Of a DNA stretch of 34,538 nucleotides, positions 26,200 to 34,247 are shown in pieces. The notes below the pieces were generated by a model. The model saw nothing but the letters and a program-made list of their open reading frames with translations. It did no database searches and was not told the origin of the DNA. Numbering within the stretch: the stretch's first letter is position 1; every line of letters begins with the position of its first letter. Made by a program: the position numbers and the translations under genes. The DNA is from a virus, in IMG/VR virus record IMGVR_UViG_3300021519_000033, positions 1 through 34,538 of that record; one strand, given 5' to 3'.

Positions 26200-26510
26200 G
26201 ACCGTCCTCCCTTGTCGAGTTCTTCGTCAAGTTTCTTGTCAAGGTAGGCGGCGTTGTTCTTCAAACGCTCAACTTCCAATTTGAGGAAGGTGTTTTCCTC
26301 CGTCAGCCTTTCGCACTTGGCTTTGAGGGCCATTAGTTCGTTGGACGTTTGGAGTTGGTTGAATAACTGATTTACTAGGTCGTTGGTCATTGTTGGTTGG
26401 GTGGCTTGTGAAAGTTGTTTATCCAAGGCTTCGATACGTCGCTCTTGGTGATAGATGGTTAATCGTTGCTTGGTTATAATGTCCAGCAAATCTTCATCAT
26501 TACAGTTCAT
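26196..26510 (-). CDS. coiled-coil protein with possible internal start
   Basis: 104 residues from ATG 26510 (ATGA overlap with the helicase gene). Heptads at about 60-100 (Leu-Lys-Ala-Lys-Cys-Glu-Arg-Leu, then Leu-Glu-Val-Glu-Arg-Leu-Lys) resemble those of the next gene. An in-frame ATG at 26390 is preceded by the early AC-rich leader (GCCACCCAACCAACA), so a 64-residue form may be made too, or may be the main product. The function is unknown. Confidence 0.7.
   Translation of the reverse strand: MNCNDEDLLDIITKQRLTIYHQERRIEALDKQLSQATQPTMTNDLVNQLFNQLQTSNELMALKAKCERLTEENTFLKLEVERLKNNAAYLDKKLDEELDKGGRS
26391..26405 (-). promoter_or_regulatory. AC-rich leader inside a coiled-coil gene
   Basis: GCCACCCAACCAACA precedes the in-frame ATG at 26390. 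It matches the leaders of intergenic early genes but lies within a reading frame, suggesting an internal translation start. Confidence 0.4.
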
Positions 26511-27958
26511 TTGTTAAAAACTCTGACGGCCTTTGTCCGTCCTGCGACCCGCCAATCAGTCCCAATGGCCTTGCTTGCCATCTCAAAAGTGTATCGGTGG
26601 GCGTTCTTGTGTCCAAACTGACGGAGACGCTTAACCTGGCGGACTGTGGCAAGTTGAAGCCGCTGGCGTTCCTGCATCTTCTGGATGATGTAGGCGGCGT
26701 GTTCGGCTGGAAGGGTGGCAGAGGCAAAAATCTGGAAGCGTTCCAAGGTATTCTTCTGGGAGTCCGTCATAGGGTCGCTGGAAGCCTCTGGTGGCGGAAC
26801 GAAGCCGAACAGGGGTGTCACTATGGAAAGGTCGATAAGCCCCCTCTGGTGGGCATCCTTGGCCTCCTGCGTGGCCTGTGCCTTCTTCAACTGACGCAAC
26901 AGGCGTTCCTCGGCGGCATCATCCTCTTGGATAGACTCAGCAAGGGGGTCTGACTGACCAAGGATTTCACGACATACGGCGTCTGGGTGGCTGGTAAAGG
27001 CGTCCCCTGGCTGAAGCATATGTATCCCAGATACCCACATAGGGTCGAGAATTAGGCAGTCTTTTTTTCCTTCGGAGGAACGTAGCCCTCGGCCAATCAT
27101 CTGCGACCACAAGGCCCGTGACTTGGTTTCACGAAGGAGGACGATGCAATCTACCTCTGGACAGTCGAAGCCCTCGGTGAACAGACCGACGTTACATAGG
27201 AACTGCGTATGGCCTGCTTTAAAAGCATCCACGGCAATCTTGCGGAGTTTGCCCGAAGTCCCGTCAAGGTGAGAGGACTCCATCCCAAGGCTACGGAGTT
27301 CGTTGCTAAACCGCCTGGATGAGTCCACGGTCGGCAAGAAGGCCATCCCACGCTTTCGTCCGTAGCGATAAAACTCATCTACGACATTCTTGGCAACCTG
27401 GCTAATGGCCTCGTCGTAACTGTCCATAATGTTGTCGCATACGGCAACGTGGAGTTTTTGGGCCATAGGGCGGACAAGGTATCCCTGCTCGATGAGTTCA
27501 CGGATAGGGATTTGGTGAACCTCCATAAACCCTGCGGTGCTTAATTTCTGCTTATCTAACCTATCTGGGGTAGCCGTGATTGCCACGGACGGCCCTCGGA
27601 AATTGGCACGCACGTTTGCCCAAGAGGACGCAACGGCGTGGTGTGCCTCATCGAACACGCAGAGTGCCACATCCATCTGCGGGGCCGAAAAGGACTTTTG
27701 AAAGACGCTAAAAACATCCCCCCGTATGCCAAAGCGTTCCATAGAAACCTTGGCTTGGGATAGGAGTTCCTGGCGGTGGGCGAACAAGTAGCAAGGGAGG
27801 TCGTGCTTCGCCTGCCAGCGACGCATAATCTCACAAGCCATCACAGTCTTGCCAGCCCCCGTGGGGGCGACAAGAAGCGGGTTCACGTCTTTAACCAACG
27901 CATCAATGCAGGCACTGATGGCCTGCTCTTGATACGGGCGGAGGGAAGGTTGTGACAT
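26507..27958 (-). CDS. superfamily 2 DEAH-box helicase
   Basis: 483 residues. N-terminal Leu-Arg-Pro-Tyr-Gln (Q-motif-like) is followed by Walker A Ala-Pro-Thr-Gly-Ala-Gly-Lys-Thr at 31-38, Asp-Glu-Ala-His at 103-106, Thr-Ala-Thr-Pro at 128-131, and motif VI Gln-Met-Ile-Gly-Arg-Gly-Leu-Arg near 285-295. After about 310 an acidic/helical C-terminal extension of unknown role follows. Family members (SSL2/RecG-like SF2) unwind or remodel DNA in replication and repair. The start is ATG 27958, directly after the tRNA CCA with no spacer and no Shine-Dalgarno sequence outside the tRNA. This start fits the family, whose members begin within a few residues of Leu-Arg-Pro-Tyr-Gln. Confidence 0.93.
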   Translation of the reverse strand: MSQPSLRPYQEQAISACIDALVKDVNPLLVAPTGAGKTVMACEIMRRWQAKHDLPCYLFAHRQELLSQAKVSMERFGIRGDVFSVFQKSFSAPQMDVALCVFDEAHHAVASSWANVRANFRGPSVAITATPDRLDKQKLSTAGFMEVHQIPIRELIEQGYLVRPMAQKLHVAVCDNIMDSYDEAISQVAKNVVDEFYRYGRKRGMAFLPTVDSSRRFSNELRSLGMESSHLDGTSGKLRKIAVDAFKAGHTQFLCNVGLFTEGFDCPEVDCIVLLRETKSRALWSQMIGRGLRSSEGKKDCLILDPMWVSGIHMLQPGDAFTSHPDAVCREILGQSDPLAESIQEDDAAEERLLRQLKKAQATQEAKDAHQRGLIDLSIVTPLFGFVPPPEASSDPMTDSQKNTLERFQIFASATLPAEHAAYIIQKMQERQRLQLATVRQVKRLRQFGHKNAHRYTFEMASKAIGTDWRVAGRTKAVRVFNK

Positions 27959-28048
27959 TGGAGGAGAGGGAGGGATTTGAACCCTCGGTAGTTTTTAGGC
28001 TACGGAGGTGTAGCACACCTCTGCAATAAGCCGCTCTGCCACCTCTCC
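27959..28048 (-). tRNA. tRNA-Ser (anticodon GCU), encoded CCA
   Basis: Acceptor GGAGAGG (28048-28042) pairs with CCTCTCC (27969-27963). The D arm keeps A14, G18G19 and A21. The anticodon stem GAGGT/ACCTC has loop GTGCTAC, giving GCU (reads AGC/AGU). The long variable arm (GTAG/CTAC) and T arm GAGGG-TTCAAAT-CCCTC complete a class II serine tRNA. CCA is encoded (27961-27959). Odd points: discriminator U73 instead of the usual G, and G32-C38 closing the anticodon loop. There are 5 bases to the upstream stop and none to the helicase ATG. Confidence 0.93.
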
Positions 28049-28053
28049 AAACA

Positions 28054-28503
28054 TCAGAACGGGCCGACCATCGGGCCGTCGGAGTGCTTACGGAAGTAAG
28101 AACCAGAGTAGGCCACGCCTTCCGTCCCGTCACGCTTCGTGTATTTGCGTTCGGTGACGACGACCTTCAAGCGGCGACCGATGGAACGCTCGGCAACGGA
28201 TTTGATGAAATCCTCGTCAATCTCGAACTCGCCACGGGAGATGTATCCCTGCTTTTCCTCGTCGCTTGCGGTAGCGGCCAAGAACTCGTTGAGGCGGGTG
28301 TATTCACCAGACTTGTCGGGCTTGTTGAAGATTTCGGAATAGACAGTCTCACCATCGGTGTTTTCGAGAGCGAACTTCACATAGAAGTCTGCTCGTGGTG
28401 GGAGGTAGTCAGTCTTGAAAGACTTGACGACGACCTCGTAAGTGCCTGGCTTCGTAATGTATTTACGTTCCTCGGCGGCATTTGGGTTGAACTTGAACGA
28501 CAT
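28054..28503 (-). CDS. DUF669-like protein (putative ssDNA-binding)
   Basis: 149 residues. Beta-rich with conserved Lys-Pro-Gly-Thr-Tyr-Glu-Val-Val near 18-25, a Leu-Asn-Glu-Phe-Leu region near 90, and a C-terminal Tyr-Ser-Gly-Ser-Tyr-Phe-Arg. This resembles DUF669 proteins, which in phages lie next to RecT/exonuclease genes and are proposed to bind single-stranded DNA. Here it is downstream of the nuclease gene in the same operon. The start ATG 28503 has an A/C-rich leader (AACCAACCCAACCCA). It ends 5 bases before the tRNA. Confidence 0.65.
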   Translation of the reverse strand: MSFKFNPNAAEERKYITKPGTYEVVVKSFKTDYLPPRADFYVKFALENTDGETVYSEIFNKPDKSGEYTRLNEFLAATASDEEKQGYISRGEFEIDEDFIKSVAERSIGRRLKVVVTERKYTKRDGTEGVAYSGSYFRKHSDGPMVGPF

Positions 28504-31428: not shown

Positions 31429-31643
31429 AGACAATGATGATACTTGACAGCGGCATCCTCGCCAACCTCCGCCCATAGGCTGATGAAGTAGTCGGCTTGT
31501 TTCTGGGTCTTGAACTCAAAGGACTCGTAAAGGTTGCCTGTCTCTTGCTCGGTTTCATCGACAAACCACGTTACCTTGTCGGTGAGTGGGTCAACGAGCC
31601 GTTGCGGGATAAGGTCGATACAGGTTTGCGGGTCCTGGCTCAT
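31425..31643 (-). CDS. small hypothetical protein
   Basis: 72 residues, start Met-Ser-Gln-Asp. Acidic with several Cys, His and Trp (Thr-Trp-Phe-Val-Asp-Glu-Thr) and a final Lys-Tyr-His-His-Cys. Alternating strands followed by a helix (Gln-Ala-Asp-Tyr-Phe-Ile-Ser-Leu-Trp) give a compact alpha/beta domain. ATGA-coupled on both sides. No family is recognised. Confidence 0.6.
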   Translation of the reverse strand: MSQDPQTCIDLIPQRLVDPLTDKVTWFVDETEQETGNLYESFEFKTQKQADYFISLWAEVGEDAAVKYHHCL

Positions 31644-32497
31644 TTGCGGTATTCCTCCGTGGGGGTGTCCACCTGGGCGGCTTCTTTTTCAATCGGCTCT
31701 GGCACTTCGCATTGAGTCATCTTAATTCCGTATGCCTTCATCTCGGCTTCAAAGATGTGCCACATAATGTTTTGGTAGTCTCGGTAGGAGTTTAGTTTGT
31801 TGTGTTCCGCTACGTCCTTGCAGAGATAGGCGACGGCCTCAATAAGCCAAGCCATCTCAACGAAACTGTCGGCATCCTCGCATCGGCTAAGGTGGCAACT
31901 ACCAATCTGAGTGCTACTTTCCTTTGTGCTGTATTGCGAATGGCTGATGTCGATGACGCTGTGATGCCTGGGGCTTCCATAGACCTCAACTCTTTTAATG
32001 AGCGTGTCATCAATCGTGAAGTTGAACTTAAACGGATTGCCACGCTTGCTGGTAAGGGTAATTACAGGGTCGCCACGTTCGTTAAACATTTTGTGCGAGA
32101 CGTTCGGCACGCCTTCATTGACGCTCAGAGCCTCGGCAAGATTGGAGGAAGATTGGAGGACGTTATGGGCGTTGCGGACAAATTCCTCAAAGGTGGCACG
32201 CTTGGCACGCAAGATGTAGTTCTCACGCTCCGCCTCCATCGACTCACGGACGATTGGAGCGTGAGTGCGGAATACTTCATCACACTTCGCCTGGGCGTCA
32301 TTGAAAGCGACTTCCTCGCCCTTCTTTAAAGCCCCCTTGGGGGTTCGCTTACAGGCGGACTGCTTACTCTGCTTTTCTGCAAGAGCGATGCGGAGTTCTG
32401 CGGCGTGCAAAACCACGTCCGTATTAGGCGTGAACCTGGGAAGCGGAAACCAAGACGGAGGCGTTTCGGGGGCGGTGGGGGTATCTTCGATGCTCAT
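31640..32497 (-). CDS. hypothetical protein, 285 residues
   Basis: A Pro/Thr-rich N-terminal stretch (about 5-25) precedes a Lys/Glu helical region and a central beta part with Val-Ile-Thr-Leu-Thr-Ser-Lys-Arg. The C-terminal half has Cys-His-Leu-Ser-Arg-Cys-Glu-Asp-Ala and helical segments. It is the largest of the unrecognised early genes. The AC-rich leader occurs twice (CCACCCAGCCACCCACCC then A-rich). It starts with Met-Ser-Ile-Glu, similar to the Met-Ser-Gln-Glu start next to it. The function is unknown; nothing suggests an enzyme. Confidence 0.65.
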   Translation of the reverse strand: MSIEDTPTAPETPPSWFPLPRFTPNTDVVLHAAELRIALAEKQSKQSACKRTPKGALKKGEEVAFNDAQAKCDEVFRTHAPIVRESMEAERENYILRAKRATFEEFVRNAHNVLQSSSNLAEALSVNEGVPNVSHKMFNERGDPVITLTSKRGNPFKFNFTIDDTLIKRVEVYGSPRHHSVIDISHSQYSTKESSTQIGSCHLSRCEDADSFVEMAWLIEAVAYLCKDVAEHNKLNSYRDYQNIMWHIFEAEMKAYGIKMTQCEVPEPIEKEAAQVDTPTEEYRK

Positions 32498-32535: not shown

Positions 32536-32925
32536 TTATTCATTAACCCCGCTATTACGCAAGGTTTCAATTTCGTTTTTTACGGCCTCGGAAATGTCCG
32601 AGTAGATGTGTTCATATCCTTCAAGGTTTCTACAAATGTCCTTCGCCTGGTCAATCGTAGGCGTAAAGGCTAACCGACTGCTTTCAGAGTATTCAATCAC
32701 GTCCTGTGGAGTCCACATCGAATACCAGCATCCCATCTTGTATCGGAGGACGTAGTGGAGGTGGTTCATAATTTCATTAACCTCGGCTTCGGTTGCTTCC
32801 CTTTCTTCGGCAAACGCAATCTCACAAAGTAGTTTGTAAGCCCTGGCCTTGCGTGGCTCGTTAGTGGTAATGTTAAAGTCAAAAATGACTTCGTTTTCCC
32901 CCGTGGGTGTGTTTTCTTGGCTCAT
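32536..32925 (-). CDS. hypothetical protein (Met-Ser-Gln-Glu start)
   Basis: 129 residues, acidic and helical. Contains Arg-Tyr-Lys-Met-Gly-Cys-Trp-Tyr-Ser-Met-Trp near 65 and a C-terminal helix rich in Glu/Asp. No family is recognised. The leader CCACCCATAAAAAACAA is identical to that of the gene at 31640, and the first codons (ATG AGC CAA GAA AA) nearly match those of the gene at 32922, suggesting duplicated start cassettes. Confidence 0.65.
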   Translation of the reverse strand: MSQENTPTGENEVIFDFNITTNEPRKARAYKLLCEIAFAEEREATEAEVNEIMNHLHYVLRYKMGCWYSMWTPQDVIEYSESSRLAFTPTIDQAKDICRNLEGYEHIYSDISEAVKNEIETLRNSGVNE

Positions 32926-33971: not shown

Positions 33972-34247
33972 TTACATCCCCTTTGAGTCGGTGGCAAAAT
34001 CCTGTCTCAAAATTTCGTAGCACTCTTGAACGGATGAGGGTTCGTCCTCTAATTCAAGGCACTTTGGGTTGTAATCAATTTCGCAGATAGCGGCATAGAG
34101 ATTAGAGCCCTGCCCTTGGTAATGATGTGCGGCAAAGTAGTAGGCGGCAATTAGGCAATCTTGCTCCCATCCCTCGTAGCGGAGGGAGGGCGTCAAAGCC
34201 CCCGCAAGGGAGGCTTTCATTTCTGACAGCGTTGGGTCTTTGGACAT
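33972..34247 (-). CDS. small hypothetical protein
   Basis: 91 residues. An acidic helical protein with a central Ala-Ala-Tyr-Tyr-Phe-Ala-Ala-His-His-Tyr segment and several Cys (Cys-Leu, Cys-Glu-Ile, Cys-Leu-Glu, Cys-Tyr-Glu). Start ATG 34247 follows a leader made of CCCCCCACCCCATAAAAAAACT. No family is recognised. Confidence 0.6.
   Translation of the reverse strand: MSKDPTLSEMKASLAGALTPSLRYEGWEQDCLIAAYYFAAHHYQGQGSNLYAAICEIDYNPKCLELEDEPSSVQECYEILRQDFATDSKGM

Follow-up and report, generated by a model that had tools for sequence, protein, structure and literature searches.

A tRNA lies upstream of a protein gene in the E. coli thrU-tufB operon, a bacterial example of tRNA and mRNA on one transcript. 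Mitochondrial genomes have tRNAs whose CCA is not encoded. These tRNAs punctuate mitochondrial transcripts (Ojala 1981, reviewed in PMC4394434). Phage genomes also encode tRNAs, which have been linked to codon supply or to evasion of tRNA-cutting defences (PMC10264068, PMC11555353); phage tRNAs with altered anticodon loops have been proposed to resist host nucleases, and a phage tRNA-Ser(gct) has been described as a serine tRNA that escapes targeting (PMC10264068). In some bacteria, the 3' cut in tRNAs with an encoded CCA falls a few bases beyond it and is followed by trimming back, and RNA-seq of Propionibacterium acnes places the cuts a few bases 3' of the CCA or within it (PMC3848588). Thermotoga RNase Z cuts directly after the CCA, and so does RNase E at some of its sites (PMC7479834).

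In the phage locus described here, a tRNA-Ser(GCU) abuts the start codon of a helicase gene with no base between, as in mitochondria, and its excision would likewise give a leaderless mRNA. The locus differs from mitochondrial punctuation in that a single gene has a tRNA next to it, on one side, rather than tRNAs standing at most gene boundaries, and in that the CCA is encoded. tRNA and helicase mRNA would share one transcript, as in thrU-tufB, but that operon has a leader carrying a ribosome-binding site between tRNA and gene, and the phage locus has none. It shares with tRNAs described from other phages a canonical structure (here type II, tRNA-Ser(GCU)), a setting in a cluster of phage genes and an anomalous anticodon loop; those, however, lie in a tRNA cluster, whereas here a single tRNA in a 34.5-kb record is set into a replication operon at zero gap.

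Results

The window, the whole stretch of DNA analysed, is one virus record of 34,538 bases. Its rightward genes encode terminase, portal, protease, capsid, tape measure and tail proteins, and its leftward genes a primase/helicase, a PAPS-reductase-like protein, the helicase, an SSB-like protein, exonuclease VIII, RecT and a Holliday-junction resolvase. On the minus strand, the SSB-like gene (28503..28054, stop codon 28056-28054), which encodes 149 aa ending in ..GPF and matches PHROG 378 (single strand DNA binding protein, E 5.6e-7), is followed by the five-base spacer TGTTT (28049..28053), by the tRNA (28048..27959) and by the helicase gene (26507..27958). Homologues of the SSB-like protein, 40-61% identical, are encoded 5' of the helicase in relatives too. 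The helicase, a DEAD/ResIII superfamily 2 protein of 483 aa, matches PHROG 16 (DNA helicase, E 9e-65) as well as PF04851 (ResIII, E 4.9e-19) and PF00271 (Helicase_C). An earlier note on this DNA had placed the tRNA-Ser in the leftward operon behind a five-base leader, with its encoded CCA running straight into the helicase ATG; ARAGORN, Rfam RF00005 and the sequence bear out both points, with CCA at 27961-27959 and ATG at 27958-27956. Junctions of the operon other than that of tRNA and helicase are mostly ordinary close or overlapping stop-start pairs.

The presence of the tRNA is certainly beyond chance. It spans 90 bases including the CCA, and its region, searched alone, scores 47.6 bits against RF00005 (gathering score 29); that a fast-filter Rfam scan of the whole window missed it is a matter of sensitivity. 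ARAGORN finds no other tRNA in the whole window. The cloverleaf has a 7-bp acceptor stem (GGAGAGG/CCTCTCC), the T-loop TTCAAAT, U73 and the long variable arm of a type II tRNA, with 4 bp. A possible mini-ORF of 19 codons on the same strand, MFGEVAERLIAEVCYTSVA (27996..28055), has an ATG that overlaps the SSB stop codon (TGATG), ends in the variable arm and is read in a frame other than that of the helicase; a family search with it gave no match.

We next considered where helicase translation starts. In the helicase frame, the codon just 5' of the ATG is the CCA itself, and reading further back meets a TAA in the variable arm before any ATG, GTG or TTG; moreover, the alignment of helicase relatives begins at residue 2, so the ATG at 27958 is the helicase start. 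The earlier note had named two findings that would count against its reading, a start further downstream and a separate promoter in the tRNA region. In the sequence, the CCA-adjacent ATG is the sole usable start, and a search near the tRNA found no promoter-like site.

The anticodon loop of the tRNA, GUGCUAC (28010..28016, minus strand), carries the rare combination G32-C38. Among 2424 other tRNAs of the fetched loci, G32 occurs in 15 and G32-C38 in three, none of them a serine tRNA. The tRNA thereby departs from the usual Y32 and the mostly found A38, and also from G73, all of which are typical rather than strictly defining features; among 146 fetched serine tRNAs with CCA, G73 is present in 121 and U73 in 18, making U73 a minority form but not a rare one. 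G32 and C38 could pair, which would make the loop smaller. AGC and AGU codons are not enriched in the phage (~25% of serine codons), so codon supply by this tRNA is unproven. The odd loop hints at a role in decoding or against nucleases, of which the anti-nuclease role is a lead and not a result. A search for the origin of the tRNA returned phage and plasmid matches that are at best 71-76% identical over most of the gene and uninformative on origin; an exact match to the anticodon arm, in contig L376, proved not to be a tRNA.

We compared the junction in 42 viral contigs that carry both SSB and helicase genes and that, sharing ancestry, do not represent 42 independent events. Their helicases were retrieved with an alignment query; a single-sequence query of viral and genome contigs retrieved none. 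ARAGORN found no tRNA in the SSB-helicase junction of any of the 42. Across 50 terminase-related contigs, a single one has an RF00005 match, about 4 kb from its helicase. In the nearest helicase relatives (67-70% identical), the SSB stop codon is mostly followed by 4 or 5 bases and the ATG (L296-L298, L300, L302). L299, L338 and L339 have a TAATG stop-start overlap. Several relatives at ~50% identity have either GC-rich hairpins followed by T runs, resembling terminators, or about 150-650 extra bases. The hairpin and T run lie between SSB and helicase in L306, L316, L325, L331 and L337, where the helicase may consequently be a separate transcription unit; the extra bases, partly open, make the junction a variable slot in many relatives within L311-L347. 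A degenerate tRNA suspected in the junction of L301 was rejected, and no helicase was found in L203-L206, viral contigs with a 93-94% identical terminase.

With a tRNA in no junction of the 42, the most likely history, judged from these comparisons, is that this lineage gained it by insertion at a site that differs between members of the group; its loss by every relative also fits the distribution, less economically. The spacers of some relatives read UCCAG-AUG, with a CCA already near the AUG, and part of the encoded CCA may thus derive from an old spacer.

A gap of exactly zero is no more than mildly unusual, since the spacers of close relatives have 4-5 bases and zero-gap cases recur elsewhere. 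Given such an ancestral spacer, the 3' end of an insert that spares both SSB and helicase can lie no more than a few bases from the ATG, and we put the odds of exact abutment at about one in five or six. A scan of IMG/VR for a T-arm followed by CCAATG returned at least 120 contigs. Among the matches listed, the CCA-adjacent ATG opens an ORF in 7 of 98 confirmed unique tRNAs of viral contigs, compared with 8 of 94 where the ATG overlaps the last A of the CCA (gap -1) and 5 of 86 where it lies at +3; ORFs of at least 60 aa with no tRNA inside were counted by the same filter in all three classes, and some are probably spurious. Clean CCA processing at a -1 overlap would destroy the AUG, yet such overlaps are as frequent as zero gaps, which argues that these contacts reflect general packing. 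Zero-gap ORFs include one in L108 with, by eye, a plausible RusA-like N-terminus, and small ORFs in L065 and L053. In the fetched loci, starts are commonest about 10-24 bases after the CCA, in a tally that is biased at gap 0 and informative for its general shape only.

To place the helicase start among those of the phage, we calculated anti-Shine-Dalgarno (SD) pairing at 31 starts, which averages -1.86 kcal/mol against -1.89 kcal/mol in shuffled sequence and reaches -4.4 kcal/mol or better at 2 of 31, where 16% is expected from shuffled sequence. At the helicase start the pairing energy is 0; as most starts here have weak sites or none, a helicase without an SD site is the norm for this phage and not diagnostic of a leaderless mRNA. 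The leftward genes at 31640-32497, 32536-32925 and 33972-34247 have in common a stretch like CACCCATAAAAAACA 5' of the ATG. The closest named terminase relative is Verrucomicrobia phage P8625 (TerL, 25%), which has no annotated tRNA, and SD sites are scarce in Akkermansia and in another verrucomicrobial genome (PMC10783764). The TerL resemblance and the scarcity of SD sites only suggest a verrucomicrobial host; no prophage or phage contig was found in GTDB genomes.

Folding models show what the tRNA would do to the start region of uncut RNA. Opening positions -15 to +18 costs 14.6 kcal/mol, the fourth highest value of 31 genes, and the upstream 15 bases account for 9.7 kcal/mol, the highest of the 31. 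The helicase AUG itself costs 4.24 kcal/mol to open, against a mean of 1.62 with shuffled leaders, and the native leader hides it more strongly than 96% of these (21 of 500 hide it as well). In the minimum free energy fold, a predicted helix between leader and trailer (27953..28056, minus strand) joins UGAUGUU (28056-28050) to AAUGUCA (27959-27953), pairing the helicase AUG with the leader around the SSB stop. Removal of the leader, as by RNase P, lowers the modelled cost of the AUG to 0.36 kcal/mol, and the first 18 bases of a leaderless RNA cost 0.04 kcal/mol. In relatives without the tRNA, positions -15 to +18 cost 12-15 kcal/mol and the upstream parts 4.3-5.6 kcal/mol; whole-region costs are thus alike, so the folding model does not discriminate, and the tRNA chiefly adds upstream structure.

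In these models the AUG footprint is buried to an unusual degree in uncut RNA, so that making the helicase efficiently may require some processing; cleavage could thus benefit the helicase, with the universal RNase P already relieving the AUG. The earlier note had gone further, proposing that processing gates helicase translation. Its physical premise agrees with the modelling, in which the AUG is buried in uncut RNA (4.2 kcal/mol) and open in leaderless RNA (0.04 kcal/mol), but the gating itself found no support: the tRNA is absent from the junctions of relatives, starts without SD sites are general, and the zero gap is not favoured over -1. In such a gate, folding and cleavage of the tRNA would time helicase synthesis, for example by tying output to the tRNA-processing capacity of the host. 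A gate is possible on thermodynamic grounds, the one kind of evidence in its favour, namely the costly upstream footprint and the strength of the leader pairing. That pairing, however, is borderline against the 500 shuffles and comes from a single sequence with no covariation, RNase P is always present and relieves the AUG by itself, and nothing points to the zero gap having been selected. The arrangement is also absent from all 42 relatives with both genes, so the conservation expected of a selected regulatory gate is not seen. We consider a gate very unlikely.

What processing would leave of the helicase mRNA depends on the 3' cut. A cut right after the CCA would yield a leaderless mRNA, whereas one further downstream would cut into the helicase gene, leave no AUG at the 5' end and make tRNA and mRNA mutually exclusive products. 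In the former case, RNase P and a 3' endonuclease might excise the tRNA routinely, so that the helicase mRNA is leaderless or, trimmed by RNase P, headed by the tRNA, and processing is needed but unregulated. Such constitutive excision would suit the zero gap at the sole start codon, the fall in AUG cost from 4.2 to 0.36 kcal/mol after RNase P alone and to 0.04 when leaderless, the known direct cuts after CCA (PMC7479834), and the SD scarcity of Akkermansia and another verrucomicrobial genome (PMC10783764) taken with the TerL resemblance to phage P8625. We nevertheless regard it as unlikely, given that zero gaps are not enriched over -1 in viral contigs and that another bacterium cuts a few bases 3' of the CCA or inside it (PMC3848588). 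This same cut-then-trim route, described for tRNAs with an encoded CCA, would favour the latter case, in which host endonucleases cut in the helicase start and trim back to the CCA, so that each transcript yields either tRNA or helicase mRNA and helicase dosage is lowered. At some viral tRNA/gene junctions with a one-base overlap (CCATG), clean maturation must indeed destroy the AUG; we judge mutually exclusive products highly improbable here. Taken more broadly, the idea that tRNA maturation creates or limits a leaderless helicase mRNA, as a mitochondria-like punctuation switch possibly tied to a nuclease-resistant anticodon loop, appears quite unlikely.

Discussion

Our comparisons indicate that an ordinary phage tRNA was probably gained at a variable site of the operon, with its contact to the ATG arising from packing rather than from selection as a switch. 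One lineage of an SD-poor siphophage group would have gained tRNA-Ser(GCU) as cargo between SSB and helicase. As no promoter of its own was found, the tRNA would be transcribed with the leftward replication operon, and host RNase P at the 5' end and host 3' nucleases at the CCA would mature it. Infected cells would then receive from the phage a serine tRNA that its altered loop perhaps protects from host anticodon nucleases. Contact with the ATG would follow from packing into the ancestral 4-5 base spacer, which in some relatives already has CCAG before the ATG, and the helicase, like most genes here, would be started without an SD site, from a mixture of uncut and cut RNAs.

If packing alone accounts for the junction, the locus illustrates clearly how a compact phage operon can take up a lone tRNA at a variable site, and assays of the odd-loop tRNA with host anticodon nucleases would be worthwhile. 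Were punctuation demonstrated, the mitochondrial route to leaderless mRNAs would extend to phages, and it would account for the tolerance, in SD-poor phages, of tRNAs joined directly to start codons, an arrangement found repeatedly in viral contigs.

In one tRNA array of the viral contig L065, a tRNA-Gly(gcc) and a tRNA-Asp(gtc) are each followed at zero gap by a small ORF (117 and 115 aa), the 117-aa one HNH-like by eye. In L076 (IMGVR_UViG_3300017963_000316), 22 tRNA genes alternate with small protein genes at about 3.8-13.4 kb of the reverse complement, in a layout that looks mitochondria-like. Several of its ORFs extend about 9-15 bases into the next tRNA, and six of its tRNAs end in CCATG, the A of the CCA being the A of the ATG of the next ORF (45-166 aa), such that these start codons would be lost if the tRNAs matured cleanly.
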